Shown here piece by piece: positions 31,715 through 57,436 of a stretch of DNA of 64,000 nt. Source of the DNA: Faecalibacterium taiwanense (GTDB lineage Bacteria > Bacillota > Clostridia > Oscillospirales > Ruminococcaceae); the NCBI RefSeq assembly GCF_036632915.2, contig NZ_CP155552.1, positions 992,001 through 1,056,000 on the forward strand, in the 5' to 3' direction. Positions within the stretch are counted from its first letter, which is position 1; each line of letters starts with the position of its first letter. A program made the position numbers and the translations under genes. The notes under the pieces are model-generated. The model worked only from the letters and a program-made list of their open reading frames with translations. It was not told where the DNA came from and ran no database searches.

Positions 31715-31790
31715 GCACCTCTAGCTCAGTTGGTAGAGCAACTGACTCTTAATCAGTGGGCCCAGGGTTCGAGTCCCTGGAGGTGCACCA
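31715..31790 (+). tRNA. tRNA-Lys (anticodon CTT), integration target
   Basis: A 76-nt cloverleaf with anticodon loop CTCTTAA and an encoded CCA. Its last 45 bases, from the anticodon loop onward, are repeated exactly at 57392-57436. The copy next to the integrase keeps the tRNA complete. Confidence 0.96.
31746..31790 (+). repeat. attL: attL: 45-bp repeat at the 3' end of tRNA-Lys
   Basis: Identical to 57392-57436. It runs from CTCTTAATCAG in the anticodon loop to GTGCACCA at the tRNA end. Confidence 0.92.
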
Positions 31791-31793
31791 ATA

Positions 31794-31829
31794 AAAGAGC
31801 GTTGAATCGTAAGATTTGACGCTCTTTTT
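31794..31829. terminator. Terminator just inside the element
   Basis: AAAGAGCGT pairs with ACGCTCTTT, followed by TT. It would end the rRNA-tRNA transcript inside the element. Confidence 0.75.
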
Positions 31830-31857
31830 CGTTATGTAACCCCGAAAAATCGGGGTC

Positions 31858-31887
31858 TGCACGGTCAATGCACGGTTTTTGCACGGT
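31858..31887 (+). repeat. Left array of integrase arm-type sites
   Basis: Three TGCACGGT repeats at 31858, 31869 and 31880, exactly 11 bp apart and all in the same orientation. A matching array lies near the right end (57222-57251). Confidence 0.7.
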
Positions 31888-31952
31888 CGGCTTTTTCGTG
31901 GGAATCCTCTGCATGGGCTGGAATTGCTTTGAAATGCGTGGTAAATTTTGCA

Positions 31953-33341
31953 TCAGGTCAGCAGTGCCAGACGGAGCTGTGCCTTTACTTCAGGGTCGGC
32001 GTTCTTCAGAAGTTCCAGCAGAGCGGTCATAGAGATGGTCGGTTCGCCTGCGGCATTTACAGCCTGCGGGCTGGGGTTTTCCTGTTTGGCATAGAACCCT
32101 TCCTCAAACTTTTTCCCAAGTTCTACACGAGAGGACTGCTGGATATGAGCGTAGGTGTTTACCAGCATATCTGCCGTAGCGTGTCCTGTGGTGCCCTGAA
32201 CGGCCTTCACATCGCCGCCGGAGATCATCAGCTGATAGGTTGCACTGGAATGGCGCAGACCGTGGAACACGATACGTGGGAACTCCGGGTGTGCATCCTG
32301 CCATTTGAGGAACTTTTTACGGATGAGCACCGGCTCTACCGCCAGACCGTTGGGCAGGCGGAACAGCATCCCACTGTCATGGTAACGTTCCGGGTCTTTC
32401 GATTCGTCTGCCGCTAACTGATTCAGCCACTTCTTCAATTCCTCTTTAAGAGCAGAGGTCATGAAGATGGTGCGGCAGGAGGATGCGGTCTTGGTGCTTT
32501 TCAGGATGAGGGAAGTGGTACTGCGCTCCAGCTTGTCCGGGAATACCTTGATGATGCAGCCATCATCTACTTGATTCAGGGCTTCTTTTCGCACCCGCTG
32601 CATGGACTTGTTGATACGGAACGTTCCGATGCCATCTGCGGCATCAAAATCGAGATCTTCCGGGGTCAGACCTGCGATCTCGCCCTCTCGCAGTGCGCCC
32701 ACCAATGTGAGGTGGACTGCCAGATGCAGGATAGGATCCTCCATGCTGTCCAGAGCCGCTCGCATTTCCTCTACCGTCCAGATGGTACGCTCCTGTGTGG
32801 ACTTCTTGGGGCTGTCCACGGGAACAGGGCTTTTGACAAGGATGCCCCATTCTACAGCGTACTGGAATGCGGTGCCCAGCAGCCGATGAACCTCGTGGAT
32901 GGTGGTGCCGGAAAGGAACCGCTGCTTCTGCTTTTCGGTCAGTTCCTGCTTCTTTCCCTCGATATACGAACCGCAGGGCGTTTTGCTCAGGGTCGTGTAG
33001 AGGTTCTCCATGTGGTAGGGCTTGAGCTTCTGCATCTCCATGCTGCCGATATAGGGGATGATCAGATTCTGGATGGTGGAAAGGTTGGATTCGTAGGTCT
33101 TGGGTGCCCACTTGTGCTTGCTGCACTGCTTGGGCAGCCAATCCATCAGGAACTCTGCCACCGTCACCGAGGACGGAATCAGAAAAGTGCCGGCCGCCAG
33201 CTCATGCTCGATCTGCTTTTTTCGGTTCGTTGCCTCCTCTTTGGTGGGAAAGCTCTCCCATTTGTCGCAGCTCTTGCCGTGCTCGTCTTCGTAGGTGTAG
33301 CGGACGCTGTAAGAGTTGCCACGCTTCGTAATATATGCCAT
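31953..33341 (-). CDS. int: Tyrosine recombinase (integrase)
   Basis: A 462-residue phage/ICE-type integrase that should recombine the tRNA-Lys att sites. ATG 33341 (MAYITKRGNSYSVRY) follows GGAGGC. Residues 1-60 form the arm-binding domain and about 65-190 the core-binding SAM-like domain. The catalytic set is Arg in GALREGEIAGL, His-x-x-Arg in FHGLRHSSATY, His in GTTGHAT, and the nucleophile Tyr in VNTYAHIQQ. It is intact and reads towards the tRNA. A C-terminal Ala/Leu-rich tail extends beyond the catalytic Tyr. Confidence 0.96.
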   Translation of the reverse strand: MAYITKRGNSYSVRYTYEDEHGKSCDKWESFPTKEEATNRKKQIEHELAAGTFLIPSSVTVAEFLMDWLPKQCSKHKWAPKTYESNLSTIQNLIIPYIGSMEMQKLKPYHMENLYTTLSKTPCGSYIEGKKQELTEKQKQRFLSGTTIHEVHRLLGTAFQYAVEWGILVKSPVPVDSPKKSTQERTIWTVEEMRAALDSMEDPILHLAVHLTLVGALREGEIAGLTPEDLDFDAADGIGTFRINKSMQRVRKEALNQVDDGCIIKVFPDKLERSTTSLILKSTKTASSCRTIFMTSALKEELKKWLNQLAADESKDPERYHDSGMLFRLPNGLAVEPVLIRKKFLKWQDAHPEFPRIVFHGLRHSSATYQLMISGGDVKAVQGTTGHATADMLVNTYAHIQQSSRVELGKKFEEGFYAKQENPSPQAVNAAGEPTISMTALLELLKNADPEVKAQLRLALLT

Positions 33342-33357
33342 ACTGTTTGCCTCCTTA

Positions 33358-33672
33358 TCAAGCTGCCCGGTTGAGCCACGCATCGAAGCTGTCTTTCGGG
33401 ATGCGGATGCTTCCGCCTACCCGCAGGACACGGAATTCGGTGGTGCTGTTGCACAGGTTGTAAGCAGAGCGCAGGCTGATGGCCAGCATTCGTGCGATCT
33501 CTTCCACCGTGTACACCAGCTTCGTGGTTTTCGGGCTGTCAGTCGGAGACTTGACGGCATTGGTTTGAGTGACCACCTCCATTGTAGTCGTGGTCGAGTC
33601 CATTTGCAAGGACTCATTCGTATAATCTTTATATTTCACATCTTCGGTCATGTCAGGCCGATTCATATTCAT
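33358..33672 (-). CDS. Excisionase-like helix-turn-helix protein
   Basis: A 104-residue protein with a C-terminal MerR/excisionase-type HTH: LVYTVEEIARMLAISLRSAY, then VLRVGGSIRIPKDSFDAWLN. ATG 33672 (MNMNRPDMTED) is preceded by GGAGG. The N-terminal half is Thr/Ser-rich and probably unstructured. It lies 16 bases upstream of int in the same orientation, as expected for a recombination directionality factor. Repeated GTAACC boxes lie in its promoter region. Confidence 0.85.
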   Translation of the reverse strand: MNMNRPDMTEDVKYKDYTNESLQMDSTTTTMEVVTQTNAVKSPTDSPKTTKLVYTVEEIARMLAISLRSAYNLCNSTTEFRVLRVGGSIRIPKDSFDAWLNRAA

Positions 33673-33692
33673 AGGCAGACCTCCAATTCCTT

Positions 33693-33876
33693 GTAACCGA
33701 ACGCCTGTAACCGGGCAGGAAAATTCTCTTTTTCTGCACACAGAGCATCCGGTGAGCTTTATACTTTTTCTTATCTTTTTAAGGTTACATGGTTACAGAA
33801 AGAGGAAAACGCAGAAGTCATGCGGATTTTTCGGTGTAACTGCGGCGTAACCAAATCTGTAACCAGACGTGTAACC
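33693..33876. repeat. Cluster of GTAAC boxes upstream of the excisionase gene
   Basis: Between the VirE remnant and the excisionase gene, GTAAC(C) occurs at 33693, 33707, 33836, 33847, 33859 and 33871. It occurs inverted (GGTTAC) at 33783 and 33791. The last four are 11-12 bp apart, about one helical turn. They could bind a regulator of the xis-int transcript. Confidence 0.55.
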
Positions 33877-33884: not shown

Positions 33885-34513
33885 TCAGAAGGGAAAGCCC
33901 AGTTGCTTGGCTTCCGCATCCGTTATTTCGGAGAAATTTTCAGCCCCGGTTTCGGGGCTGGTTACGCGCTCCCAGCCTTTCTGGACACCGTACTTCGGGT
34001 AACGCTTGGCGGTCTTGTGCGCCTGCTAGCCTTGGATATCGCCGCGCGAAATTCCTGTGTTCATAATCTCGCAGATAGCACGGGTCTCCCACTCTGCCGG
34101 GATGTTGGTGTTGCCCAGCGCCTCCGCATAGAGCTGCTTGGAACACACCCGGTCCCCTGTGTAGTCCTCCAGAAAAGCATAAATCATGCCAGCCTGTGCA
34201 TCCTCCTGCATGAAGTCCTGCTGGTGGGCTTGCAGCGTTTCCTGCATGGCAGGGCTGAATGCCAGCTTATAATTTCCGCTGTTGTAGATGGTCATGGCTT
34301 CTGCCCAGAGCTGGTCGATATAGGCGCGGGATTCCTCCTCGTTGTCCAGAATGTGGACTTCGGCCAGTTCTGCATCCACCGGGACAGGAATGAAGCGGCG
34401 GTTGCCTGTGCGGTCACGGGGCAAAAATCCTGCCGGTTGGTCGTGCCGGCAAAAACGCACTGGCGCAGACGGTCGGCAGGATGGGTCTCGTAGGGGACTT
34501 TATAGGTTGGCTC
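33885..34513 (-). pseudogene. VirE/primase-like replication protein, broken remnant
   Basis: The C-terminal third of a virulence-associated-E family (P-loop/primase-associated) protein, common on Firmicutes plasmids and elements. The recognisable order is ETHPADRLRQCVFAGTTNRQ, LPRDRTGNRRFIPVPVDAEL, then a helical tail ending KRYPKYGVQKGWERV. One frameshift lies in a run of five A at 34423-34427. An in-frame TAG at 34026-34028 (minus strand) replaces what is probably a Trp codon. The N-terminal ATPase part is missing, and its place is taken by a relaxase fragment. Clearly non-functional. Confidence 0.8.
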
Positions 34514-34841: not shown

Positions 34842-34903
34842 TTCCGTTACGGGTAAAATCAAGTGCCGGGTGGCGGCACCTGATTTTCAACAGACCTTGC
34901 AGT

Positions 34904-34950
34904 GTTACGGAAAACGATGTGCTCATTTTGACCACTTGGTTTTCCGTAAC
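34904..34950. repeat. Palindrome B of the GTTAC family
   Basis: Outer arms GTTACGGAAAAC and GTTTTCCGTAAC are perfect inverted repeats. The inner core is GTGCTCATTTTGACCAC. Confidence 0.65.
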
Positions 34951-34994
34951 AGGTTGATGAATTTCCGTTCCCGCATTCGGGAGGAGATTGAGTT

Positions 34995-35387
34995 TCATTT
35001 GGCAGATGCGTTACGCTTAACCAAGTGCTCATTTTGAGCACTTGCAGCATCCGTAACACGTTTTCGATAGTCTTTTTGCCGACAGGCATTGCTGCAATAA
35101 CGGGCACCTGCGCGTTTGGGCGTGAATTTTTCGCCGCAGCACTGGCAGACTAAATCTTGACGGCGCATTTGGCGGTATTCCCGCTGCCGCCGATTGTTGG
35201 CCTGATTGCCGCACCAGTAGCTGTGACAGTATTTCTTGGTGTAGATGGTGGTGTAGAACACCCGACCGCAGCCGCCGCAGATAAGTTTGCGGATAGCGTA
35301 TCCTCCGGTGGTAAAACCCGTTTCCTCATACGATTCTTTCAAATAATCCTGATTGTTCTGCTCCCATTCTTCGTTTGTCACATACAT
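34995..35387 (-). CDS. Small zinc-ribbon protein of mobile elements
   Basis: A 130-residue basic protein with several CxxC pairs: CGGCGRVFYTTIYTKKYC in the first half and VCQCCGEKFTPKRAGARYC with SNACRQKDYRKR in the second. It probably forms two treble-clef or zinc-ribbon modules that bind nucleic acid. ATG 35387 (MYVTNEEWEQNNQ) follows AAAGGAGGG. Similar small Cys-rich proteins lie near relaxases in Firmicutes elements, but the function is unknown. Palindrome C lies inside the C-terminal codons and palindrome D just upstream of the start, which suggests autoregulation. Confidence 0.7.
   Translation of the reverse strand: MYVTNEEWEQNNQDYLKESYEETGFTTGGYAIRKLICGGCGRVFYTTIYTKKYCHSYWCGNQANNRRQREYRQMRRQDLVCQCCGEKFTPKRAGARYCSNACRQKDYRKRVTDAASAQNEHLVKRNASAK
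35010..35057. repeat. Palindrome C of the GTTAC family
   Basis: Outer GTTACG and CGTAAC with inner AAGTGCTCA-TTT-TGAGCACTT, a perfect 9-bp inner palindrome. It lies within the 3' end of the zinc-ribbon gene. Confidence 0.65.
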
Positions 35388-35411: not shown

Positions 35412-35460
35412 GTTACAGAAAAACAATGTGGTCAATTTGACCACATTGTTTTCTGGTAAC
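35412..35460. repeat. Palindrome D of the GTTAC family
   Basis: Outer GTTAC and GTAAC with the inner arms CAATGTGGTCAA and TTGACCACATTG. It lies 25-73 bases upstream of the zinc-ribbon start, where an operator would be. Confidence 0.7.
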
Positions 35461-35686: not shown

Positions 35687-36050
35687 AAGAAAGTCAAAAA
35701 CTTGCTCCGACTCCTTCGGGAGCCGGGCTGGAACTCTAAGTAAATATGTTATATTAAATTGTTGGGATAGATTACCACAAAAATCGAGCCGTGTCAACAA
35801 AAACTTTTGAGAATACGCCGATTTCGGCAGCTTGCAAGAAAACACAAGGGGAACTTTGGTAAAAAGAGAGCTTGACGGCTCGTTCTGTTTGCAATGGAAT
35901 GCCAACCCGGAACTTTTGCGAGCAAAAAAACAACCGTCCGCTTCAAGTTGAGCTAGAAAACGGACGATCATTCTTGCAAAGCGATATTCAAATTTGGGAG
36001 GCGTTTTGAGAGGTTTCATAGTGCTAGCTTGCATTGTGCGGTATTGCCCT

Positions 36051-36749
36051 ATGAATTTTTGGAATACCTTTGCGGCAAAGCACCCCGCCGCTGCCAAGTG
36101 GGTGCGTGAGGGCGGACTGCTTGTCATCGTGTCCAATCTCATCACCGTGTTCAAATATCTGCTGCTGCAGTTTCTGCCCAAGGCATTCGCAAGCCTGCCG
36201 GTGGTGGATTTCGGCTGGCCGGGCATTGACATCACCCTCTTCGGCGAGACCTTCAAGTGGAACATTCTGGGCTACGATGCCGCTCACGGAGGTCTGCCCT
36301 ACTTCTGTGCTTACATGATCGCCATGGTCATCGGTGAGTGCATCAACTTCCCTATCCAGCGCAATTTCGTGTTCCGCAGCAAAGGCAACATTGCAAATCA
36401 GGTGGGCTGGTATCTGCTGGCGTTCTGCATCATTACCTGCATCGTCAACTCCATCAACTGCATCTGGGTGGCGGTGGCTGGGCTGCTGGTGCCAGACTTC
36501 ATCTACAACATTGGCACCACCGTGCTCAACAGCGGCATCTCCATGGTCATCTTCTTCTTTGTGAATAAGGTCATCTTCCCGGAAGGCGAGCAGGCAAAAC
36601 AAAGCTCGACAGGAGCACGGGTGGTTTTTCCGGTATTCGCCCGGCGCAAGGTGCACATGGGCTCTGAACAACCCGGAAAAGCGGCTGGGAGGAGAAAATC
36701 CAAAACAAGAGCGGATGGGCTTATCGGAAGAGCGGAGAAGGTGTTTTGA
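36051..36749 (+). CDS. GtrA-like multi-pass membrane protein
   Basis: A 232-residue protein with about four transmembrane helices (GGLLVIVSNLITVFKYLLLQF; YFCAYMIAMVIGECINF; WYLLAFCIITCIVNSINCIW; TTVLNSGISMVIFFFVNKVI). NFPIQRNFVFRSKGN between helices is the characteristic GtrA motif. GtrA proteins help move lipid-linked sugars across the membrane. The ATG at 36051 lacks a strong ribosome site. The last 50 residues are basic and not family-like, so the C-terminus may be altered. A link to the downstream sulfo-sugar genes is not evident. Confidence 0.7.
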   Translation: MNFWNTFAAKHPAAAKWVREGGLLVIVSNLITVFKYLLLQFLPKAFASLPVVDFGWPGIDITLFGETFKWNILGYDAAHGGLPYFCAYMIAMVIGECINFPIQRNFVFRSKGNIANQVGWYLLAFCIITCIVNSINCIWVAVAGLLVPDFIYNIGTTVLNSGISMVIFFFVNKVIFPEGEQAKQSSTGARVVFPVFARRKVHMGSEQPGKAAGRRKSKTRADGLIGRAEKVF

Positions 36750-37190: not shown

Positions 37191-37877
37191 ATGAAGTACT
37201 TTCTGGACAGCGCAAAACTCGACGAGATCAAGCTTGCTTACAACACCTTCGGTATTGACGGCGTTACCACCAATCCCCGCCACATCATGCTGAGCGGCAA
37301 GCCTTTCCTGACTGCCATCACCGACATTGCCAACTGGATCAAAGAAGAGGGTCTGGAAGGCTACGATAAATTCCCGGTCTCTGTGGAGATCAACCCCCAT
37401 CTGGATGACACCGAGGAGATGATCGCTGCTGCCAGAAAGGTTTCTGCCATCTGCAGCAACTTTGTCATCAAGATCCCCTGCACCGAGGCTGGCGTGGCTG
37501 CGGCCCGCCGTCTGGAGAAGGAAGGCATCCGCACCAATGTGACGCTGGTGTTCAGCCCGGCACAGGCCATCTGGCCCGCCAAGAATGGTTCTCTCTTCGT
37601 TTCTCCCTTCCTGGGCTGGAAGGAAGCCAACGGTGAGGACTGCAAGCAGTATATCAAGGACATCGTGGACATCTACAAGAACTACGGTTTCTACGGCAAG
37701 ACGCAGATTATCTGCGCCGCCATCCGCACACCCAAGCAGATCGTGGACTGCGCTGTGGCAGGTGCCGACATCGTCACCACCGGACTGGCAGTCTATCAGG
37801 ACGCGATCAAGCACGCTTACACCCGTCAGGGCATTGAGACCTTCATCAATGCGTGGGACAACACCGTGACAGAGTAA
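37191..37877 (+). CDS. sftT: FSA-type transaldolase, probable 6-deoxy-6-sulfofructose transaldolase
   Basis: A 228-residue class I aldolase of the fructose-6-phosphate aldolase/small transaldolase family. The Schiff-base Lys is in NFVIKIPCTEAG; FLDSAKLDEI and GIDGVTTNPRHIM are family motifs. In the sulfo-TAL pathway this enzyme splits sulfofructose, passes dihydroxyacetone to glyceraldehyde-3-phosphate to give fructose-6-phosphate, and releases sulfolactaldehyde. The specific role rests on its neighbours: DUF4867 isomerase, YihU-like reductase and GH31 sulfoquinovosidase. AAGGAGAAACG precedes the ATG. First gene of the cluster; intact. Confidence 0.82.
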   Translation: MKYFLDSAKLDEIKLAYNTFGIDGVTTNPRHIMLSGKPFLTAITDIANWIKEEGLEGYDKFPVSVEINPHLDDTEEMIAAARKVSAICSNFVIKIPCTEAGVAAARRLEKEGIRTNVTLVFSPAQAIWPAKNGSLFVSPFLGWKEANGEDCKQYIKDIVDIYKNYGFYGKTQIICAAIRTPKQIVDCAVAGADIVTTGLAVYQDAIKHAYTRQGIETFINAWDNTVTE

Positions 37878-37921: not shown

Positions 37922-38779
37922 ATGGAGATCGGTTTTATTGGTTTGGGCATCATGGGCGAGTCCATGTGCGAAAACATTGTCAAGAAGCATGACGACACAG
38001 TCTACTGCTTCGATTTCGTCCCCGCAAAGGTGGAGCTGCTGGCTTCCAAGGGAGCGGTGCCCTGCAAGGATTCCGTGGAGCTGGCAACCAAAGCCGATGT
38101 CATCATCTCCATGGTCCCCAAGTCCGAGCATTCCATGAGCGTCTACAAGACCATCCTTCCGGTGCTGTGTGCGGGCAAGACCTGCATCGATATGTCCACC
38201 ATCGACCCCAGTGTTTCGGTAGAGATCAGCAAAATAGTCAAGGCCACAGGTGCTGCCTTTATGGATGCCCCGGTGGTCAAGAGCAAGCCCGCCGCCATTG
38301 CCGGCAAGCTGGGCATCTACATGGGCGGCGACGAAGCTACCTGTGAAGCTATGCGCCCCATCCTTGCTTACATGGGCGAGAACATCATCCGCATGGGCGG
38401 CAACGGCAAGGGGCTGGTGATGAAAATCTGCCACAATGCGCTGGTCACCCAGATCCAGAACGGTGTCAACGAGACGCTGTCTCTGGCACAGCTCAACGGC
38501 ATCACGGTGGAGGATTATGCCACAGCCATCTCCTACGGCGGCGGGCAGAACTTCTATCTGGATGGTCAGTGGCAGAAGCTGCGGGATGAGGACTATACCA
38601 CTGCTTTCTCTCTGGCAAATGCCGCCAAGGACGTGGGTATCTGCATGGAGCTTGCAAAGGAGTGCAGGCTGGAGATGCCCGGCGAGGCCAATGTGAAAAA
38701 GGTCTATGACAAGGGCATGGAGGCCGGCATGGGCGGCGACGACTGGCGCTCGACCTTCAAGCTGGTCCGCGGCCACTGA
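37922..38779 (+). CDS. sftF: Beta-hydroxyacid dehydrogenase, probable sulfolactaldehyde reductase
   Basis: A 285-residue protein of the 3-hydroxyisobutyrate dehydrogenase family, to which E. coli YihU belongs. The Rossmann motif is MEIGFIGLGIMGESMCENI. The substrate-side segment is DAPVVKSKPAAIAGKL, where typical members have DAPVSGG, and the catalytic Lys is in GNGKGLVMKICHNAL. In this cluster the likely reaction is NADH-dependent reduction of sulfolactaldehyde to 2,3-dihydroxypropane-1-sulfonate, which regenerates NAD in fermentation. ATG 37922 follows AAAGGAG. The altered substrate loop suits an unusual acid such as a sulfonate, but that is inference. Confidence 0.8.
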   Translation: MEIGFIGLGIMGESMCENIVKKHDDTVYCFDFVPAKVELLASKGAVPCKDSVELATKADVIISMVPKSEHSMSVYKTILPVLCAGKTCIDMSTIDPSVSVEISKIVKATGAAFMDAPVVKSKPAAIAGKLGIYMGGDEATCEAMRPILAYMGENIIRMGGNGKGLVMKICHNALVTQIQNGVNETLSLAQLNGITVEDYATAISYGGGQNFYLDGQWQKLRDEDYTTAFSLANAAKDVGICMELAKECRLEMPGEANVKKVYDKGMEAGMGGDDWRSTFKLVRGH

Positions 38780-38794: not shown

Positions 38795-39469
38795 ATGGAA
38801 AACTTGTTGGAGCATCTGAATCAGGTCAATGATGTTCCGGTGTACAGCGTGCTGGACCCGGAGTTTGCCCCCTACGGTCGGGTGGTCACAGGCTATGATC
38901 TCAGTGAGATGATCGCCTACATGGAGCAGAACACCTCCATCCCGGAAAACGGCAATGTCTATGTTGCCAGTGTGCCGGAGATGGAAGCTCTGCCCGCAGC
39001 CACCGGGCTGCAGAAGAAGTTCTACGGCGATATGCCCATTGAGGTGGGCTACTGCAACGGGCGCAACACTACATGGAACGGCTTTGAGTACCACAAGGGC
39101 AGCGAGATCAATGTGGCAGTCACGGACTTCATGCTGATCCTGGGCCATGTGTGGCAGATCGAGAACAATACCTATCGCTTCGAGAACGCCAAGGTGTTCT
39201 TTGTGCCGCAGGGCACGGCGGTGGAAATGTACCAGACCACCCTCCACCTGTCTCCCTGCCGGGTCTGCGATGCAGGCTTCAAGGGCATAGTCATCCTGCC
39301 CCGAGGCACTAACACACCGCTGGAGGACAAGACCCCGGGCGACGACCCGGAGAGCAGACTGCTGCTCCAGCGCAACAAGTGGGTCATCGCCCACCCGGAG
39401 CGGGAGCCGCTCATCAAGCAGGGAGCCTATCCCGGCTTGCTGGGCGAGAACCGGGAACTCCACTATTAA
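38795..39469 (+). CDS. sftI: DUF4867 family protein, probable sulfoquinovose isomerase
   Basis: A 224-residue cupin-like protein of the DUF4867 family, recognised from GYCNGRNTTWNGFEYHKGSE, FFVPQGTAVEMYQTTLHLSP and RNKWVIAHPE. His in EYHKGSE, Glu in AVEMYQ and His in TLHLSP look like cupin metal ligands. In sulfo-TAL gene clusters of Firmicutes the isomerase converting sulfoquinovose to sulfofructose is of this type, as I recall it. Position directly after the transaldolase and reductase fits that role. GGGAGAACAGG precedes the ATG; intact. Confidence 0.78.
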   Translation: MENLLEHLNQVNDVPVYSVLDPEFAPYGRVVTGYDLSEMIAYMEQNTSIPENGNVYVASVPEMEALPAATGLQKKFYGDMPIEVGYCNGRNTTWNGFEYHKGSEINVAVTDFMLILGHVWQIENNTYRFENAKVFFVPQGTAVEMYQTTLHLSPCRVCDAGFKGIVILPRGTNTPLEDKTPGDDPESRLLLQRNKWVIAHPEREPLIKQGAYPGLLGENRELHY

Positions 39470-39497: not shown

Positions 39498-41504
39498 ATG
39501 GAGATCATTTGCAAAGAACGGGTCTTTACCCTGAAAAACGGCAGCGATGTGCTGCTGCATACCGACGCCGATACCCCCATGGTCTATGTCGGTTGCGGCG
39601 AGGAGCGGGTGGAGATGTACCGCGGCAACTTCAAGCTGGAGGATCATCTGTTGGAGCGCCGCCCCTGACGCTGACCGCGACCCGTGCGACACAACAGGGG
39701 ACAGAGCTGGATCTGGAAGGCCGGCTCAAGCTGCTGGTCACCGAAAAAACGGCGCAGTCACCCTAACCGTGACTGAGAAGGCGGAGGAGATCAACCGCTT
39801 CTGGCTTCGGGTGGAAGCGGCCGAGGACGAGCATGTCTACGGCTGCGGCGAGCAGATGAGTTACTTCGATCTGCGGGGCCGTCATTTCCCCTGTGGTCCA
39901 GCGAGCCGGGCGTCGGGCGCGACAAGACTACCTATGTGACATGGCGCAGCAACGTGGAAAACGGCGGCGCGGGCGGTGACTATTACAACACCAACTACCC
40001 GGAGCCTACCTACGTTTCCAGCCGTCACTACTACCTCCACATGGATACCACCGCTTACGGCGATTTCGATTTTCGCAATCTCCACTACCACGAGCTGCAG
40101 TGCTGGAATGTGCCGGGCTTTATCCGCATCGAGGCAGCGCCCACCTTTGTGGAGCTGCTGGAAAAGCTCACTGCTTTTCTTGGACGTCAGCCGGAGCTGC
40201 CGGAGTGGGTCTATAACGGCCTGATCATTGGTGCGCAGGGCGGCAGCCAGCGCAGCTTTGACATCGTGGACAGAAGCTTGGAAAAAGGCATCAAGGTCTC
40301 CGGCCTGTGGTGTCAGGACTGGTGCGGCAAGCGGGTGACCAGCTTTGGCAAGCGCCTCCAGTGGGATTGGCATTACCACAAGGAGATGTACCCCGATCTG
40401 CCCCGGCACATTGAAGAGCTCCACGCCCGGGGCATCCGGTTCCTTGGCTACATCAACCCGTACCTCGTCAAGGACGGAGAACTTTATGCCGAGGGCAAAA
40501 AACGGGGCGTCTTTGCCAAAAAGGCCGACGGGTCCGATTATCTGGTAGACTTTGGCGAGTTCTATTGCGGCGTGGTGGATTTCACCAACCCGGAGGCCTA
40601 CCGCTGGTTCAAGGACGAGGTCATCAAAAAGTATACGCTGGACATTGGCATCGACGGCTGGATGGCGGACTTTGGCGAGTATCTCCCTACCGACGATCTG
40701 GTGCTTTCCAACGGGGTCAGCCCCATGATCGAGCACAACCACTGGCCGGCGCTCTGGGCAAAATGCAACTACGATGCCGTTACCGAAAGCGGCAAGCTGG
40801 GGCAGGTAGTCTACTTTATGCGTGCCGGCGGCACCGGCAGCCAGAAGTACTGCACGCTGCTGTGGGCCGGTGACCAGAGCGTGGATTTCAGCCGCCACGA
40901 TGGTCTGTGCACCGTCATCTGCGCGGCCCTCAGCTCCGGCATGGTCGGCTGCGGACTGAACCACTGCGACATCGGCGGCTACACCTCTCTGTTCGACAAC
41001 TGCCGCACCAAGGAGGTATTCCTCCGCTGGGCAGAGATGGCGGCCTTCATGCCGGTGATGCGCACCCACGAGGGCAACCGCCCGGACACCAACTTCCAGT
41101 ATTACGATGATGAAGATTGCATGACGCAGCTGGCGCGGCTGGTGGATATCTATACCATGCTGGCACCTTACACCAAAACGCTGGTGGCTGAAAACGCCGC
41201 CAAGGGCACCCCGGTCATGCGTCCCCTCTTCCTTCATTACGAAGATGACCCCCGCAGCTATACCGAGCAGTTCGAATACCTCTACGGTTCGGACCTGCTG
41301 GTGGCTCCGGTGTGGCACAGCGGAGCGACCGAGTGGGAGGTCTACCTGCCCGGTGACGCGTGGGTCCACCTGTGGACCGGCAAGGTCTACGGTAAGGGCA
41401 CCCACACCGTTCCCGCAGAGATGGGCGACATCCCGGTATTCTGCCGCAAGGGCTCCCAGTGGACGGAGCTGTTTGACAGCATCCGGGAAAAATACGGGAA
41501 GTAA
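39498..41504 (+). pseudogene. sftG: GH31 sulfoquinovosidase, three frameshifts as sequenced
   Basis: A YihQ-type glycosidase that would release sulfoquinovose from its glycosides. It should be about 670 residues. The catalytic half (39936-41504) is intact: WCQDWCGKRVTSFGKRLQWD, the nucleophile region GIDGWMADFGEYLPTDDLV, and the acid/base Asp in LLWAGDQSVDFSRHDGL. These segments follow the YihQ sulfoquinovosidase pattern more than ordinary alpha-glucosidases. The N-terminal domain is broken by one-base losses at C-run 39662-39665, A-run 39744-39749 and C-run 39888-39891. Restoring one base at each gives a continuous GH31 protein through HFPLWSSEPGVGRDKTTYVT. Confidence 0.85.
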
Positions 41505-41507: not shown

Positions 41508-42265
41508 ATGGAAAATCAGATCCTGTTTTACATCGTTATCCTGTTGACCAATATCATCCACGGCATCACAGGCTTTGCAGGCACCATTCTGGCAATGCCT
41601 CCCAGCCTGATGCTGGTGGGCTACGACATCGCAAAGCCCATCCTGAACGTGCTGGCGATCTTCTCCGGGGTGTACGTCTTTGTGGGAAACTACAAAAGCA
41701 TCAACTGGAAAGAGTTTGCCCGGATAGTTGTGGTGATGGCACTGGGCATCGTTGGTGCCGTGTATATCAAGGGACTGTTCATAGGCAAGGAGCATCTGCT
41801 CTACAAACTGCTGGGGCTGCTGGTCATCGGGCTTTCAGTGCAGGGACTTTACAAGCTCGTGCACAAGCCGGAGCCGGATACAAAAAAGCCTGCAGAGAGG
41901 CAGACCGCCGCGCGCAATGCAGGAACCTGCGCACTGCTGGTGCTGGCAGGCATCATTCATGGATTGTTTGTCAGCGGCGGCCCGCTACTGACGGGGTATA
42001 TGACCAAGAGGATCCAGGACAAGACCGTTTTCCGTGCGACCATTTCCACGGTATGGATCTTTTTGAACACCCTTGTTTTTTGGAAGATGTGCAGGCGGGG
42101 CTGTGGGTGCCCTCTACTGTAAAGATGCTTGGCATCTCGGTGCCGTTTCTGCTGGCGGGGATGTTCATCGGCAGCAAGCTGGTGACCCGTATGAGCCAGC
42201 TGGTCTTTATGAAACTGACCTATGTTCTACTGTTTATTTCGGGGCTTTCGCTTCTGGTGAAATAA
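41508..42265 (+). pseudogene. TauE/SafE-family anion permease, one frameshift
   Basis: A membrane protein of about 252 residues with seven or eight hydrophobic helices. The TauE/SafE family exports sulfite, sulfoacetate and other organosulfonates. Typical features are the N-terminal NIIHGITGFAGTILAMP and the second repeat GIIHGLFVSGGPLLTGYM. The frame breaks at a run of six T (42076-42081); restoring one T gives LVFLEDVQAG and continues to the normal C-terminus GLSLLVK. In this cluster it would export the sulfonate end product. It starts 3 bases after the glycosidase. Confidence 0.8.
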
Positions 42266-43408: not shown

Positions 43409-43463
43409 GCGCTGAACTCATCCAGAAACAAGTGCCGGACCGGTCACGTTTCGCATGGATCTT

Positions 43464-43503
43464 GTGCAGACGGGCTGCCGATGCAGCCCGTCTGCATTTT
43501 TTG
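43464..43503 (+). terminator. Internal terminator between tctC and tctB
   Basis: GCAGACGGGCTG pairs with CAGCCCGTCTGC, followed by ATTTTTT. It would lower transcription of the permease genes relative to the binding protein. Confidence 0.85.
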
Positions 43504-43580
43504 TCAGAAAAAATAAAAGCAGGATTCCCCAAATGGGGGAGCCTGCACTGGTTTGCCGTATGAAAGGAGAATGGATTTCG

Positions 43581-48338: not shown

Positions 48339-49952
<1,614 letters not shown>

Positions 49953-49955: not shown

Positions 49956-51138
49956 ATGAACCGTGCACAGGACGGAGGCCTTCGCTTTTTCTCCGAGCTG
50001 TCGGAGCATCAGATTTCGGCCGATGAGTTTTTCAATGTTGTCCTGCTGGACTCGCTGGCCCGCAATTTCGGGCTGAAGAACGTGCTCATCTCGTATTTTG
50101 ACCCGCAGGGCAGATTCCTCTCGTGGACCCACCGCAACGGCGTGCTGGCGGATCACGAGGGACACCCGTATCGCAGCTGCCTGCCCGAGGATGTGGTGCG
50201 TCAGACCCTGTATCGGGAGGCGGTGCAGGACAACCTGACCTACTACAATGTGACCCCCGACTGTACCATTCCACCCGGCTGATCCCGCCGCAGGATTACG
50301 CCCGAAGCCGCTATGTGCAGTTCATTCAGGAACAGTTCGGAGCGTATTACAGCGTGACCATGGCCTTTGGTATCAATGCCTACATTCAGGTGGCGTTTTT
50401 TAAAAGCTGCGCCGAGGGGGATTTTACCCCCGAGGAGCTTTTTGCAGCTGGAGCAGATCTACGTTTACATCGCCAACGATTACAAGAACTTCAAAAAATA
50501 CGAGCAGGCCCGGATCATCACCAACATCCAGAGCGAGATCATCCTCTCCGGGAGAAAGCCTACCTCGTCACCGACGATTTCATGCACATCATGAGCTGCA
50601 ACCACGCGGCAAAGGTCTGTCTGGACGATATCCTTGGCGCCGCCGCCGAGGGCTGGACGGCAGCAGACCCTGCAGCTGGCTGCCGTTTTTGCTGGGCAGC
50701 GAGCGGGACCACGCCGAAAACAGGGTGCAGACCCGGGTCATCCGGGACTATATCTTTAAGATCTACACCTACGATCAGCGCTATTCCAACGGCATCGTGG
50801 ACCGCTACCACTGGATCACCATTTCCCGGGTGGAGTCGTCGGCGGCGAACGACCGGAGCGGAGAAGCTCTGCCTGCAGGCACAGGTCAGCCGCTGACCAA
50901 AGCGGAACTGCGGGTGGCACGGCTGCTGGCAAAGGGGCTGACCTATCAGGCCGTAGCCGACCAGCTGGTGGTAAGCTACCATACAGTCAAGAAGCATGTG
51001 CAGAATATCTACCAGAAATGCGGGGTCAATTCCCGGTTCCAGCTTTACCGCTGGATGGAGCGGAACGACCCCAAAAATGACCCAGCGCATCCAGAATGGC
51101 ACCCCGTGGGAAAAAGCCGGACAGAATGTCGGAAATGA
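49956..51138 (+). pseudogene. LuxR-type regulator with an unrecognised sensor domain, four frameshifts
   Basis: About 390 residues when repaired. The C-terminal LuxR/GerE HTH is clear: LTKAELRVARLLAKGLTYQA, then LVVSYHTVKKHVQNIYQKCG. The N-terminal 250 residues look like a tandem sensor region, possibly GAF or PAS. Recognisable pieces are NFGLKNVLISYFDPQGRFLS, YSVTMAFGINAYIQVAFFKS and YLVTDDFMHIMSCNHAAKVC; I cannot name the ligand. Frame changes lie at 50254-50258, 50439-50443, 50547-50551 and 50650-50652, all in short homopolymers. It lies directly before the glycyl-radical genes and may activate them. Confidence 0.7.
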
Positions 51139-51298: not shown

Positions 51299-52261
51299 GT
51301 GGATCAGACCGGCATCGTGTTCAATGTCCAGCGCTTCACCATCCACGACGGCCCCGGGGTGCGGACAGAGTTTTTTCTGAAGGGATGCCCCCTGCGGTGC
51401 CAGTGGTGCTCCAACCCCGAAAGCTGGGCGCTGCAGCCGCAGGTGGGGGTCTATCGGACCAAGTGCATCGGGCGCAGGGCCTGCGGTGCCTGCGATGACA
51501 GCTGCCCGCAGGGCGAGATCTTCCGGTTCACCGCAGGCAGGCTGGCAGGCATCGACCGGACAAAGTGCAGCGACTGTCTGGTCTGCGCGGAGGAATGCCC
51601 CTCCGATGCCCTCAAGCAGTGGGGCAGACCGATGAAGGTGGAGGAGTGCATGGAGATCGTCCGGCGGGACAGGGGCTATTACGAGCGCTCGGGCGGGGAG
51701 TCACCGTCTCGGGCGGCGACCCGCTGGTGCAGAGCGATTTTGTGGCAGCCCTGTTCCGGGCCTGCCGGCAGGAGGGTTCCATACCTGCTGCGAGTCCACC
51801 TTCCATGCCGGATGGGATGCGGTGGAAAAAATCCTTCCCTGCACCGACCTCATCATCTCTGACCTCAAACTGATGGACCCGGAGCTTCACCGGCAGTACA
51901 CCGGGGTGAGCAACGAGCGCATCCTGCAAAACCTGCGCCGTCTGGCGCAGGAGGGCCGGAAATGATCCTTCGCATCCCGGTCATCCCGGGCGTTAACGAT
52001 GGGCGGCAGAACATCGAAGCCAGCGCGGATTTCATCCTCAAACAGCTGGGCGGGCAGGTGCGGACCCTGCAGCTGCTGAGCTTTATACGGCTGGGCGAGG
52101 AAAAATACCGGTCGCTGGGCATCCCGTATCAGATGGAGTCCGTGCGCCTGCAGCGCCGGGCTTTTCAGCGGCGGGTCGAGGAGATCGCAAAGTATTTCAA
52201 CAGCCGGGGCATCCACTGTCTGGTGGGTACCCGGGAAAAAGAAGAGAACCGACCGGAATAA
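51299..52261 (+). pseudogene. hpfH: Glycyl-radical enzyme activase (radical SAM), three frameshifts
   Basis: About 320 residues when repaired. The radical-SAM cluster motif is CPLRCQWCSNPES. A ferredoxin-like insert with two Cys clusters follows (CGACDDSCPQG; CSDCLVCAEECPSDAL), as in activases of glycerol-dehydratase-type enzymes. SGGDPLVQ and the downstream segments lie in changing frames. One-base losses are at 51695-51698, 51774-51776 and 51960-51962. The start is probably GTG 51299 after AAAAAGGAGG. It would install the glycyl radical on the enzyme encoded 27 bases downstream. Confidence 0.83.
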
Positions 52262-52287: not shown

Positions 52288-54794
52288 ATGGCAGCTGTCC
52301 ACACCAACGCACGCGGCACCGAGCCGTATGATAAAGTTTACTGTCTGGGGTATCAGGTCCATCACGAGGACTGGTCCCCCTATCCCCGCATCAACAAACT
52401 GCGCCAGACGTTTCTGGACCGGGGCTATGACGTGGACGTGGAGCGTCTGCGCCTTGTCACCCAGAGCTACCGGCAGCACGAACACCTGCCCGAAAAGCAG
52501 AAGGTGGCCTACGCCTTTGAAAATGTGCTGCTGCACTGCGGCATAGAGATCTGCGACGACGACTTGATCGTGGGCGAGATCGCTTCGCCCATCAAATCTG
52601 CCCCCATCTACCCGGAGTTCTCGGTCAACTGGATCCTGGACGAAGTGCAGAACCACCCCTTTGAGCAGCGGGAGCATGACCAGTTCACCATCCGCAGCGA
52701 ACAGGAAAAGCAGGAGATCCTGGAGCTGTGCCGCTGGTGGAAGGGCCGCACGCTGGACGATTACATCAACGTCCGTCTGGACGAGGACCAGCTCAAGGGC
52801 TCCGAGGCGGGCAAAAAATCTACCAGACCAACCTCTACCACTACGCCGGCACCGGTCATCTGGCGGTGGATTACGCCCGCCTGATGCAGCTGGGCTTTGA
52901 CGGTCTGCTGCAGCGTGCCCGGGAAAAGCTGGCGGCGCTGGACATGCACGACCCCGAGTTCTGCACCAAGCGGGAGTTCTATCAGGCGGTCACCATCATG
53001 TACGGCGCTGTAAAAAGTACATCCTGCGGTATGCGGTTCTGGCAGAGGAAATGGCAGCCCGCGAGCAGGAAGCCGGGCGGAAGGCCGAGCTGGAACAGAT
53101 CGCCGCCAACTGCCGCGCTGTGGCAGGCGGCACGCCAAAGACCTTCTGGCAGGCGCTGCAGCTGTTCCACTTTGCCACGATGCTCATTTGTGTGGAGTCC
53201 AACGGCCACTCCATCTCCTATGGACGGATGGACCAGTGGCTCTACCCCTATTATCAGGCGGACAAGAGCCTTTCCAAGGAGTTCGCGCTGGAACTGCTGG
53301 AAGTGGAGTATGTCAAGCTCAACAACCCCACCAAGCTCAAGGACCGGGGCAGCATGGCGCTGCGCAACGGCAGGGGCTTTGGCGGCGAGAGCCTGACCAT
53401 TGGCGGCGTGAAGCGGGACGGCACCGACGCCACCAACGACCTGACCATGCTGATGCTGGAAGCCTCTGCCCACACCCGGATGATGAACCCGTGGGTCTGT
53501 GTGCGGATGCACGAGGGCACCCCGGAGGAGCTCCGCATCAAGGCGGTAGAGTGCATCCGCGCCGGCTACGGCCACCCCAAGCTTTTCAACGACAGCGCTG
53601 CGATCAAGGGCATGCTGCGCAAGGGGATGACTCTGGAGGAAGCCCGCGACTACTGCGTGGTGGGCTGTGTGGAGATCAGCCTGCCGGGCCGGGAATACGG
53701 CTGGCACGACGCCGCCTATGTCAACACCGCCAAGATGATGGAGATGGTGCTCAACGGAGGCCGCTGCCTTGACTGCGGCCCGCACTGCCCCGCTGGAGCC
53801 GGTGCGGCGCACTGGGTGGACATCTTGGTCCCGATACCGGCAGGCTGGACCGCTATGCCAGCTTTGAGGAGGTCCGGCAGAGCGTGGATGCCCAGTTTGA
53901 GTACTGGACCAACCAGATGTGCTCCAGCCTCTGCGTCATCGAGAATGCCCACCGGGCGCTCAAACCGCTGCCCTACGTCTCGGCGCTGTTTGAGGACTGC
54001 ATGGAGTCCGGTCACGACCTGACCGAGGGCGGTGCCAAGTACAACGGCATCGGCCCTCAGGCCAGCGGCATTGCCACCTGTGCCGACTCGCTGGCTGCCA
54101 TCCGGCAGCTGGTCTTTGACGAAAAGCGCTGCACAGGCGCCGAACTGCTGGAAGCCGTCAAGCACAACTGGAAGGGCTATGAGAAGCTGTACGCTCTCGT
54201 CAACAGCTCCAAAGTCCACCACTACGGCAACGACGATGATTACGCCGATGCGCTGTTCCGGTTCATGTTCGAGACCTACTGCAGGCACATTGCCGGACGC
54301 AAAACGCCGCGTGGCGGGATCTTCAGCCCCGGTGTCTACTCGGTCAACGCCAACGTTGCCATGGGCCTGAACACCAACGCATCGGTGGACGGACGCAAGG
54401 CGGGGAGGCCATCTCGGACAACATGGGCCCGGTCCATACGGAGCTTGGCTCCCATGACATCAACGGCCCCACCGCCATCGTCAACTCCCTGACCAAGGTG
54501 GACCACAGCCTTGCCACCAACGGTACCCTGATGAACCTCCGCTTCCCGCAGGAGGCGGTGGCGGGCATCGAAGGCCGCGACAATCTGGCAGCCTTTATTG
54601 AGGAATACATCCACAAGGGGGCCATGCACGTCCAGTTCAACATTATGAGCGCCGCCACCATGCGGGCTGCCCAGAAAAAGCCGGAGGACTACAAGGACAT
54701 GCTGGTCCGCGTGGCGGGATACAGCGCCTACTTTGTGGAACTGGGCAAGCCGCTGCAGAAGGATCTGATCCAGAGGACCGAACTCCATTTTTAA
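52288..54794 (+). pseudogene. hpfG: Glycyl-radical diol dehydratase, probable dihydroxypropanesulfonate dehydratase, four frameshifts
   Basis: About 836 residues when repaired. The C-terminal radical loop is VRVAGYSAYF; the catalytic Cys and Glu are in VVGCVEISLPG. GHSISYGRMDQW, GWHDAAYVN and TGHLAVDY match positions that bind the diol in B12-independent glycerol dehydratase. This favours a dehydratase (HpfG-like) over a C-S lyase (HpsG), but substrate cannot be proved from sequence alone. Dehydrating dihydroxypropanesulfonate would give 3-sulfopropionaldehyde. Frame changes: A-runs 52813-52818 and 53012-53016, C-run 53788-53791, G-run 54402-54405. AAGGAGG precedes ATG 52288. Confidence 0.85.
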
Positions 54795-54822: not shown

Positions 54823-55971
54823 ATGAAAGACTTCAACTTTAAGATTCCCCAGAACATCCAGTTTGGCATGGGCAGTCTGAAAAAGCTGCCGGAGATCCTG
54901 ACCGAGAGCCGCTCGGACAAGATCCTGCTGGTGTCGGATCGCGGACTGGAAAAGATCGGCGTCGTCAAAAAGGTGCAGGATATCATTGAGACGGCGGGGC
55001 TGCAGTGCACCAGCTATCTGGATGTGGTGCCCAACCCCACCATGGCGGTGGTCAACGAGGCCGCGGACCTGTACCGGAAATGCGGAGCCACCAGCATCGT
55101 GGCGCTGGGCGGCGGCAGCTCCATGGACGTGGGCAAGGCTGTGGGCATCCTGGCCAACTATGGCGGCAGGATCACCGACTACGAGGGCAACCACAAGGTG
55201 CCCGGCCCCATCGTGCCGATGATCGCCATCCCCACTACGGCAGGCACCGGCAGCGAGGTGACGGCCTCTGCTGTGATCACGGACACCGAGCGCAACTACA
55301 AGCTCTCGGTGTTCAGCTACGAGATCCTGCCCAGATACGCCGTGCTGGACCCCGAGCTGATCATGACGGCTCCCGCTTCCATCGCTGCGTCCTGCGGCGT
55401 GGACGCCCTCATCCACGCCATGGAGGCCTATGTCTCCCGCAACGCTACCCCCTTCTCCGACGCCATGGCGGAAAAGGCCATGGAGCTCATCGGCGGCAGC
55501 CTGCGCCGCTTTGTGGCCAACCGTCAGGACGAGGAAGCCGCCTGCGCCATGATGCTGGGCTCCAACTTTGCAGGCATCGCCTTTGCATGGGCCCGGCTGG
55601 GCAATGTCCACGCCATGAGCCACCCGGTCAGCGCGTATTTCAACGTGCCCCACGGGGTGGCAAACTCCATCCTGCTGCCCAACGTGGTGGAGTACAATGC
55701 ACTGGCGGACCATGGACGCTATGAGGTCATCTACAACTACATCCGGGAAGGCAGCGGCTCCACCGAAAACTTTACCCCGGAGCTGCTGGTGGAGGAGTTG
55801 CGCCGCCTGAACCGGCAGCTTGGCATCCCCGCCACCCTGTCGGAGGTGGGTGTCACCGTCGAAAAGATCCCTGCGATGGCAGAGGATGCCATGAAGAGCG
55901 GCAACATCCCGGCAAACCCCCGCCAGAGCACAGTCAGGGACATTATCAAGCTGTACGAAAAGACCATGTAA
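54823..55971 (+). CDS. hpfD: Iron-containing alcohol dehydrogenase, probable 3-sulfopropionaldehyde reductase
   Basis: A 382-residue group III (iron-dependent) alcohol dehydrogenase, intact. The NAD-binding ALGGGSSMDVGKAVGI and TAGTGSEVTASAVI are typical. Metal ligands are Asp and His in GVDALIHAMEAY, His in NVHAMSHPV and His in VPHGVANSIL. Such enzymes include 1,3-propanediol dehydrogenase. Next to the glycyl-radical dehydratase the likely job is reducing its aldehyde product to 3-hydroxypropanesulfonate, disposing of NADH. It could equally reduce 3-hydroxypropionaldehyde or hydroxyacetone. GAAAGGAAG precedes the ATG. Confidence 0.88.
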   Translation: MKDFNFKIPQNIQFGMGSLKKLPEILTESRSDKILLVSDRGLEKIGVVKKVQDIIETAGLQCTSYLDVVPNPTMAVVNEAADLYRKCGATSIVALGGGSSMDVGKAVGILANYGGRITDYEGNHKVPGPIVPMIAIPTTAGTGSEVTASAVITDTERNYKLSVFSYEILPRYAVLDPELIMTAPASIAASCGVDALIHAMEAYVSRNATPFSDAMAEKAMELIGGSLRRFVANRQDEEAACAMMLGSNFAGIAFAWARLGNVHAMSHPVSAYFNVPHGVANSILLPNVVEYNALADHGRYEVIYNYIREGSGSTENFTPELLVEELRRLNRQLGIPATLSEVGVTVEKIPAMAEDAMKSGNIPANPRQSTVRDIIKLYEKTM

Positions 55972-55985
55972 ACGGGGTGTTTTCC

Positions 55986-56865
55986 ATGCAGGCAGTGCTT
56001 CGGAATGATTTTTTGACCCTTACGGTGGACACCCATGGAGCCGAGGCGGTCAGTTTGAAAAACGATGCCGGGGAGGAGGTGCTCTGGCAGGCTGACCCGG
56101 AGGTCTGGCCCCGTCACGCGCCCATCCTTTTTCCGTGGACAGGGAGCTGCCCGGCAGCTCCTACTCTCACAAAGGCAAGACCTACCATGTGGTCAAGCAG
56201 GGCTTTGCCAGGGATGTGGAACACACGCTGGTGCGGGCTGATGAGAACGAGATCGTCTTGGAGCTGCGTTCCAGCCCGGAGCTTAAGGCGACGCAGTTCC
56301 CTTTGATTTTATTCTGCGCAGCACGTTCCGGTTGGAGAACCGGACGGTCTGCCACACTCTGACCGTGGAAAATCCCGGCAGCGAGGAGCTGCGCTTCGGC
56401 ATCGGCTTTCATCCCGCATTCAACATCCCCTTTGACCGTCACCATACCACAGAGGATTACGAGTTCCGGTTTGACCGGCCGGAAAGCCCGGTCATTCTGG
56501 ATGCCCGGCCCCATGGGCTGCTCAGCGGAAAGTGCTATTACAAATGGAAAAATGCCGAGAAGATCCAGCTGACCGATGATCTGTTTTCCAACGACAGCTT
56601 CTGCATGGCGGGGCTGCGGACCAGAACGTTGGGCATTTATGAAAAAGACAGCGGGCGGCACATCGTCTGCAATGTTGAGGATTTTCCGTACAAGCTGATC
56701 TGGAGCGCGCTGGCAAAGCCGGTCCGCTTTGTCTGCATCGAGCCATGGCACTCTCTGCCCAGCGCAGAGACCGACCCGCAGGAGTGGAGCGAGCGCGCCG
56801 CCGCCGTCTGTCTTGCACCCGGAAAAAGCTGGTCTACGACCCTTTCCACCACCGTCATGCGGTGA
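55986..56865 (+). pseudogene. Aldose 1-epimerase-like protein (possible sulfoquinovose mutarotase), two frameshifts
   Basis: About 293 residues when repaired, of the galactose mutarotase-like family. The N-terminus is FLTLTVDTHGAEAVSLKNDA, then SSYSHKGKTYHVVKQGFARD. The catalytic-type His is in RFGIGFHPAFNIPF, and CIEPWHSLPSAETDP near the end is characteristic. Mutarotases of this kind accompany glycosidases and speed anomer interconversion of the released sugar. One-base losses lie near 56137 and at T-run 56302-56304. It is the last gene of the cluster, followed by a terminator. Confidence 0.75.
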
Positions 56866-56913
56866 AGACCAGCAGCAGTTTCCAAGCACCTGCCGCACAG
56901 CGGGCTGGAAATG

Positions 56914-56960
56914 CAAAAAGTCCCATGCCGCACCGGAAAGGCGGGCGTGGGACTTTTGCT
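56914..56960 (+). terminator. Terminator of the sulfoquinovose cluster
   Basis: CAAAAAGTCCCA pairs with TGGGACTTTTG around a GC-rich inner stem. Between here and 57391 I see no gene, only the right-end repeats of the element. Confidence 0.75.
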
Positions 56961-57221
56961 TTGGGCGTTGCGGGCCGGGGCGTTTGTTTTGCTTCAGCTT
57001 TGGTCAAAAGACCGGTGCACTCCAGAGCCGGGCGCAGGGCTAGGTATAAAAGCACAGCGCAGGCGGTGGAGACCACGCTGTTTACAAAGGTGATTAGCGG
57101 AAGGAAAGCAGGTTCATCATAGTAGTATCCTCCAAGACTTGATTTTTGGTGTGCGGTCACTCGAACTAATGCCGTCAAGTCGTTGTCGGATGAAGTGGTT
57201 TTCAGTTTGTCTGGGAGTAAG

Positions 57222-57264
57222 TGCACGATTTCTGCACGGATTTTGCACGGTTTCAAAACGTGCA
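57222..57264 (+). repeat. Right array of integrase arm-type sites
   Basis: TGCACGAT (57222), TGCACGGA (57233) and TGCACGGT (57244), exactly 11 bp apart, plus an inverted CGTGCA at 57259. Same motif, period and orientation as the left array at 31858. Confidence 0.7.
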
Positions 57265-57391
57265 GAGGGTGCTTTTCGATGCGAAATCCGACAAAGGATG
57301 CAGAAGCTGCCGGGAGAAAAATCACGTTGCTTTGATTGAAAATGACGATAGCTCGAAACTTCCATAAATTGAGACGAACCGGCGGCTTGCT

Positions 57392-57436
57392 CTCTTAATC
57401 AGTGGGCCCAGGGTTCGAGTCCCTGGAGGTGCACCA
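57392..57436 (+). repeat. attR: attR: second copy of the 45-bp tRNA-Lys 3' end
   Basis: Identical to 31746-31790 but without the 5' half of the tRNA, so it is not a functional tRNA gene. It marks the far boundary of the element. Confidence 0.92.

Follow-up and report, generated by a model that had tools for sequence, protein, structure and literature searches.

A tRNA-Lys genomic island of Faecalibacterium taiwanense and its probable cargo of fermentative sulfoglycolysis genes

The stretch of Faecalibacterium taiwanense DNA analysed here (hereafter the window; 64,000 nucleotides, positions 992,001 to 1,056,000 of contig NZ_CP155552.1, the single 2.96 Mb contig of genome G000) contains at positions 31746-57436 a 25.7 kb genomic island, which is inserted in a tRNA-Lys gene, encodes its own integrase and, judging by sequence, probably carries the genes for a fermentative degradation of sulfoquinovose (SQ) as its cargo. 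The reading frames of many of these genes are interrupted in the given sequence, most likely by sequence errors of the assembly rather than by decay. The island, the families to which its genes belong and the open homologous clusters in relatives are directly established. A preliminary description of this DNA, which had read the segment as a mobile element holding an entire SQ fermentation pathway, is partly confirmed: the bounds, the gene types and the combination of sulfo-transaldolase (sulfo-TAL) genes with glycyl-radical genes for dihydroxypropanesulfonate (DHPS) on a tRNA-Lys island hold, whereas the intactness of the frames, the assignment of the isomerase and the presumed novelty do not.

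The island is enclosed by two perfect 45-bp direct repeats, exactly where the preliminary description had placed its ends. The first repeat (attL, 31746-31790) forms the last 45 bp of the integration target, a tRNA-Lys (CTT) gene recognised by ARAGORN on the plus strand at 31715-31790, and the second (attR, 57392-57436, plus strand) is a perfect copy of the 3' end of that gene. Adjoining the tRNA gene is a tyrosine integrase on the minus strand (31953-33383; Phage_integrase and Phage_int_SAM_3), which would have put the island into the tRNA-Lys 3' end. A clean empty tRNA-Lys site, proposed beforehand as a check, is present in the related genome G022, where the left flank, the attachment (att) sequence and 58 bp of the right flank form one match of 349 columns at 97% identity with one gap; past these 58 bp G022 has in common just a dispersed 185-bp repeat, and the empty site is thus clean but short on the right-flank side. 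The 185-bp stretch directly outside attR (57495-57680) occurs in many copies across Faecalibacterium genomes. Integrase, direct repeats and an empty site in a relative together mark the segment as a genomic island. A prophage or a VapE-type satellite was considered and rejected: as regards replication and packaging genes, only a VapE-like remnant was found (34026-34460, minus strand; C-terminal part of PF05272). This remnant is the sole satellite-type gene in a Pfam scan that took in part of the island open reading frames (ORFs) and returned neither conjugation nor phage structural domains.

The cargo consists of 16 genes in a row, all on the plus strand, and includes every gene type named in the preliminary description. 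Its first gene, sftT/sqvA (37191-37877, open), scores 292 bits against the solved sulfofructose transaldolase 8bc3 vs about 83 bits against the Escherichia coli FSA, which identifies it as a sulfofructose transaldolase. It is followed by sftR (37922-38779, open), a sulfolactaldehyde reductase-type member of the HIBADH family, 94% identical to its homologue in locus L021 of F. prausnitzii APC923/61-1, and by sftX/sqvB (38804-39469, open), a DUF4867 cupin (PF16161) with 251 bits to 9gyy. The next gene, which has three frameshifts, encodes a GH31 enzyme (39498-41504), whose open piece at 39936-41501 matches the structures 6pnr (938 bits), 8r56 (744 bits) and YihQ 5aed (662 bits). The residues of the window enzyme at YihQ D405, D472, R301, W304 and Y508 are identical, as expected of a sulfoquinovosidase with a sulfonate pocket, the last four being positions which we take to be sulfoquinovosidase or sulfonate-pocket residues. 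D405 is catalytic in YihQ, and 9gyy is the DUF4867 structure of Bacillus megaterium SqvB from a sulfo-SFT cluster (PMC11968277). The preliminary description had named a kinship of the transaldolase, DUF4867 and GH31 genes with enzymes of non-sulfonated sugars as the outcome that would speak against it; all three match proteins of sulfosugar pathways (8bc3, 9gyy and YihQ). It had also cast DUF4867 as the isomerase. SftX has no shown isomerase role in the available part of PMC11968277, and the isomerase is instead probably SftI, encoded by the frameshifted sftI/sqvD (45658-46996), a fucose-isomerase-like protein for which the SftI model NF048012 is the sole NCBIfam match.

Between the sulfoquinovosidase and sftI lie genes for export and uptake: a frameshifted TauE/SafE-type exporter (41508-42265; PF01925) and a TctABC system comprising the frameshifted solute-binding TctC (42339-43408; a weak PF03401 match of one piece, and homology to genes of L024 and L021), the open small membrane subunit TctB (43521-44057; PF07331) and the frameshifted large membrane subunit TctA (44057-45606; PF01970). 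Downstream of sftI follow a ROK-family regulator (47134-48338; PF00480), the glycerol kinase GlpK (48451-49952; 778 bits on NF000756, cut-off 498) and a LuxR-type regulator (49956-51138; GerE PF00196 in the L021 homologue), all three frameshifted. SftI, the glycerol kinase, the TctABC nature of the uptake system (42339-45606) and the frameshifts had all been overlooked in the preliminary description.

The distal part of the cargo comprises the frameshifted hpfH (51299-52261) and hpfG (52288-54794), for an activating enzyme and the glycyl radical enzyme DHPS dehydratase, the open iron alcohol dehydrogenase gene hpfD (54823-55971; PF00465/PF25137) and a frameshifted aldose-1-epimerase or mutarotase (55986-56865; PF01263 in the L021 homologue). 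HpfG and HpfH were identified on their L021 homologues, which score 1614 bits on NF048009 (cut-off 1000) and 551 bits on NF048008 (cut-off 500), respectively, and to which 94% (HpfG) and 87% (HpfH) of the window codons are identical. The top solved relative of HpfG is the B12-independent glycerol dehydratase 1r8w (614 bits), and this, together with the presence of a glycerol kinase, could suggest that the glycyl radical module acts as a glycerol dehydratase, turning glycerol released by the sulfoquinovosidase into 1,3-propanediol; the scores on the HpfG and HpfH models make such a function very improbable, and since none of the 37 matched PDB sequences is named HpfG, 1r8w is no more than the closest enzyme with a solved structure. 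Weighing against the assignment of the whole pathway are three weaker matches: SftI reaches 368 bits (window piece) and 414 bits (L021 homologue) on NF048012, both below the cut-off of 700; SftR has 144 bits on NF012005 (cut-off 348) and 112 bits to 6sm7, which is not its top structural match; and HpfD matches the iron alcohol dehydrogenase family with no equivalog model above cut-off. Fifteen of the cargo genes were compared with the L021 cluster, where their counterparts are open, stand in the same order and share 84-97% protein identity. Across these 15 genes the ratio of nonsynonymous to synonymous divergence is 0.03-0.19, which indicates purifying selection.

For this cluster we infer the substrates, the transport, the flux and the redox role as follows. 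The TctABC system would import sulfoquinovosyl glycerol or SQ, and the GH31 enzyme would free SQ and glycerol, ring opening perhaps being helped by the mutarotase and SftX. SftI would then convert SQ to sulfofructose, from which SftT would transfer a C3 unit onto glyceraldehyde-3-phosphate to form fructose-6-phosphate and sulfolactaldehyde, and SftR would reduce the latter to DHPS. Activated by HpfH, HpfG would dehydrate DHPS to sulfopropionaldehyde, which HpfD would reduce to 3-hydroxypropanesulfonate (3-HPS) with the C-S bond kept, and the TauE protein would export the sulfonate. GlpK is predicted to capture the glycerol, the role assigned to the glycerol kinase of the Eubacterium rectale cluster (PMC11968277), while the two reductions by SftR and HpfD would act as sinks for reduced nicotinamide adenine dinucleotide (NADH) and thereby make the reduced glycerol half usable as well; the ROK and LuxR proteins presumably regulate. 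A transporter swap bears on the import step. In the cluster of Faecalibacterium An121 (locus L023; genome G021 is taken as the same strain) sftT is immediately preceded by an MFS_2 carrier, and glpK has as its neighbour an FAD oxidoreductase, read as GlpA-like from its DAO and Fer2_BFD domains (L104:14575-16005, L105:5940-7463). TctABC was not found in this version of the cluster. The swap points to an import of SQ or SQ-glycerol by TctABC and to a use of the glycerol half by the cluster. We claim no novelty for TctABC; a transporter is named SftA in E. clostridioformis (PMC12330013).

A related gut bacterium with both gene sets, E. clostridioformis YL32, made DHPS, with 3-HPS undetected (PMC12330013); in the window a separate LuxR-type regulator stands directly upstream of hpfH. 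Both points suit an alternative in which the pathway ends at DHPS in the cell and HpfGHD are silent or serve DHPS taken up from others. However, the two gene sets of YL32 are far apart by locus tag, whereas the 16 cargo genes of the window are consecutive on one strand, and in Enterococcus gilvus, where the sulfo-TAL and HpfGHD genes are linked, both 3-HPS and 3-sulfopropionate are produced (PMC11489063); we regard an end at DHPS as rather unlikely. The E. gilvus cluster, for which 3-HPS formation has been demonstrated, unites sulfoquinovosidase, SQ isomerase, transaldolase, sulfolactaldehyde reductase, HpfGHD and TauE (PMC11489063; PMC9594981), and the window has the same set, with its isomerase, sulfolactaldehyde reductase and HpfD as putative members. 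The E. gilvus cluster differs in having HpfXYZ for the 3-sulfopropionate branch, which are absent from the 16 cargo genes; no island is described for it in the available parts of PMC11489063 and PMC9594981. The sulfo-SFT cluster of Eubacterium rectale likewise has SftG, SftI, SftT, a reductase, SftX and glycerol kinase, as does the window with its probable SftI and reductase, but ends at DHPS (PMC11968277).

The union of the two pathways, which the preliminary description had taken as new, is therefore already in the literature: besides the E. gilvus pathway (PMC11489063), extended sulfo-TAL clusters of this type have been described (PMC9594981), and PMC12330013 both names F. prausnitzii as a presumed carrier of the extended pathway and records a sulfo-transaldolase cluster of F. 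prausnitzii GCF_003287495.1. We accordingly rejected a claim to the first union. Two further points qualify the preliminary description: the predicted end product 3-HPS retains its sulfonate group, and in this copy the majority of the genes carry frameshifts. Searches of open-licence PMC articles, judged by titles and abstract openings, found no report of sulfoglycolysis on an integrase or tRNA island. As far as these searches show, this is a new point, and a modest one, since the pathway and tRNA islands were each already known.

The claim of an entire pathway thus stands as to gene content and fails as to the reading frames of this copy: 11 of the 16 cargo genes are frameshifted, so that not all the enzymes are open, and the open genes are sftT, sftR, sftX, tctB and hpfD. 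A frame-tolerant alignment of the window with the proteins of G007, which is taken as F. prausnitzii APC923/61-1, covered 15 genes (with the mutarotase reference extended beyond its own stop and the overrun ignored) and gave 19 frameshifts in 10 of them, each the loss of one base, with no nonsense codon. The LuxR-type regulator, whose reference had been read in a wrong frame, was compared separately and has four losses and one gain. When 22 of the 23 losses were placed (one near the start of the regulator being omitted), 15 lay at runs of at least four identical bases, as do 19% of random positions. Open alleles in a protein collection are nearly identical to the interrupted copies. For a 669-residue sulfoquinovosidase from a 90% cluster of 1,055 sequences, the comparison with the window copy outside the shifted places took in 657 residues, of which 656 are the same; an open 439-residue SftI, whose first segment agrees with the window up to the shift, differs over 387 columns by two mismatches and a single gap of 7 residues, and there is another mismatch in 29 more columns. 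Many indels, nearly all of one sign, with almost no substitutions point to sequence errors as the most likely cause.

The chromosome provided a control, of which about 55 kb was compared. On the left, alignment with ORFs of G061, a genome of the same species as G000, gave two shifts in one and the same gene among 34 ORFs (14,560 amino acids), and on the right flank there was one shift in four ORFs, antisense rows of the last block being discarded. The left-flank ORF 19828-22782 shows four frameshift calls against G007 and none against G061, and the cause is taken to be that its listed start falls in a T-box leader. In G021 there is one frameshift call each in sftR and hpfH. A poor sequence throughout the genome was rejected on the 34-ORF control, within the roughly 55 kb of chromosome compared, and a shortening of long runs throughout the island was likewise rejected, G/C runs of at least five occurring at 1.09 per kb as compared with 1.20 in the G007 cluster.

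Several observations weigh against sequence error. The chromosome being nearly free of shifts, the errors would need to have gathered in islands. Shifts in the island's left part number four in four ORFs against G007 and five in three ORFs against G061; they include losses as well as gains and are accompanied by nonsense codons, although not every row was judged and some of the ORFs compared are antisense, just partly homologous or otherwise not true counterparts. On the G000 branch there is an excess of nonsynonymous changes over 11 genes (odds ratio 1.75, p 0.002), which persists after masking around the shifts (1.85, p 0.002) and is then significant in the broken genes (1.95, p 0.005) but not in the four open genes alone (1.74, p 0.20). 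The open sulfoquinovosidase and SftI alleles carry no source label.

A true decay of the island, with real mutations and a strain unable to use SQ, would accord with the concentration of shifts in the island, with the nonsynonymous excess, with the shifts of both signs found against three relatives in a second island-like stretch of G000 (L149, C1:1545001-1565000; related to 33.7-36.0k of the window) and with the broken VapE region, which has three frameshifts and one nonsense codon against a covering 284-residue ORF of G007. Such decay is nevertheless unlikely: the 15 cargo genes have 19 shifts of a single kind and no nonsense codon, and the open sulfoquinovosidase, at one differing residue in 657 against three frameshifts in the window copy, would demand that many indels accumulated with almost no substitutions. 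This near identity also means that the nonsynonymous excess in the sulfoquinovosidase gene predates the shifts. For the preferred explanation, sequence error, an island partly lost or present at low coverage would account for both the error-like shifts and the clean chromosome.

Close relatives of the cluster are patchily distributed. HpfG at 85% identity or more occurs in four of the 31 Faecalibacterium genomes, namely G000 (in five pieces), G007, G021 and G002, while three of the other 27, which include G061, have no HpfG match and 24 have distant matches only (at most 37% identity). A close SftI is found in the same four among 30 members of the genus (G000 and 29 others; G061 lay outside this set). 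Named genomes yielded 155 SftI loci, of which the best 80 were considered. The three nearest are of Faecalibacterium (L021 at 94%, L022 and L023 at 84%), hpfG lies within the fetched stretch at L021, L023 and L048 (many stretches being too short to judge), and at two Oribacterium loci, L033 and L043, sftT is preceded by an hpfD (75-76%). L048 is an uncultured Eubacteriales contig on which hpfH, hpfG and hpfD come after sulfo-TAL genes.

The clusters with a close HpfG occupy at least three contexts. The APC923/61-1 cluster has the genes of the window in the same order. The 60 kb taken there contain no tRNA, and the listed neighbours, which read by eye include RecD2 and MreB, showed no recognisable integrase. 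In G021 the RecD2/MreB stretch is on a contig other than that of the cluster, which puts the latter in a third context. The idea that G000 and G007 exchanged the cluster recently was rejected, as the synonymous divergence of the 15 cargo genes (0.44-0.82) resembles that of six left-flank ORFs (0.40-1.12). The tRNA-Lys gene itself is occupied by islands in G061, G011, G006, G025 and G007, all of which share the 45-bp att and have a 92-93% identical integrase region; between perfect att copies these measure about 6.8, 8.4, 22.0, 14.5 and 45.0 kb, respectively, G006 having an additional degenerate att copy closer in. The first four are genomes without a close HpfG, and in G007 the SQ cluster is on a different contig from the tRNA-Lys island.

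We tentatively entertain, as a possibility, that in Faecalibacterium the ability to use SQ travels as exchangeable cargo: an integrase island present in only part of the cells would bring, in a single step, uptake of SQ-glycerol by a tripartite tricarboxylate transporter (TctABC), use of both its halves, two NADH sinks and the conversion of DHPS to 3-HPS. An island in part of the cells would explain both its presence or absence within a species and the poor sequence quality. If the trait does ride on an integrase island, the patchy occurrence of close HpfG proteins has a concrete cause. DHPS, a food for Bilophila forming hydrogen sulfide, would then be turned into 3-HPS, and the sulfur of SQ would leave island-bearing strains as 3-HPS in place of DHPS. 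In human faeces, transcription of SQ degradation genes is due mainly to two organisms, of which F. prausnitzii is one (PMC8397734). Growth of B. wadsworthia was obtained with 3-sulfopropionate, whereas 3-HPS did not support it (PMC11489063), so that the strain content of the gut could set the hydrogen sulfide yield of a green diet.

The remaining features concern the island ends and their surroundings. Beyond the integrase, the left part encodes an excisionase-like HTH_17 protein (33358-33741, minus strand; PF12728) and a GtrA-like membrane protein (35994-36749, plus strand; PF04138 exactly at its cut-off). Near the VapE remnant are three related copies of a 35-bp repeat (34903-34951, 35010-35044 and 35412-35460), two of them inside palindromes some 49 bp long; they may be a signal for the replication or regulation of the island. 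On the right flank a BcrAD/BadF activase-DUF2229 gene (58592-61996) is 95-96% identical in G007 and G011, relative to both of which its frame breaks near the end (about 61946); its G007 counterpart sits between the two att copies of the 45 kb interval, and the right flank of the window may therefore itself be island material. G061 (L136 and L137; C1:2430001-2462000) has, behind the same tRNA-Lys, att copies near 2435.8k and 2457.9k, an arrangement that resembles two islands in tandem. Finally, a 7.7 kb IMG/VR contig (L175) carries a relative of the integrase (99% in the best protein segment, 92% at the DNA level over 1.9 kb) together with the att site, which indicates that such island ends have been catalogued among viral sequences.

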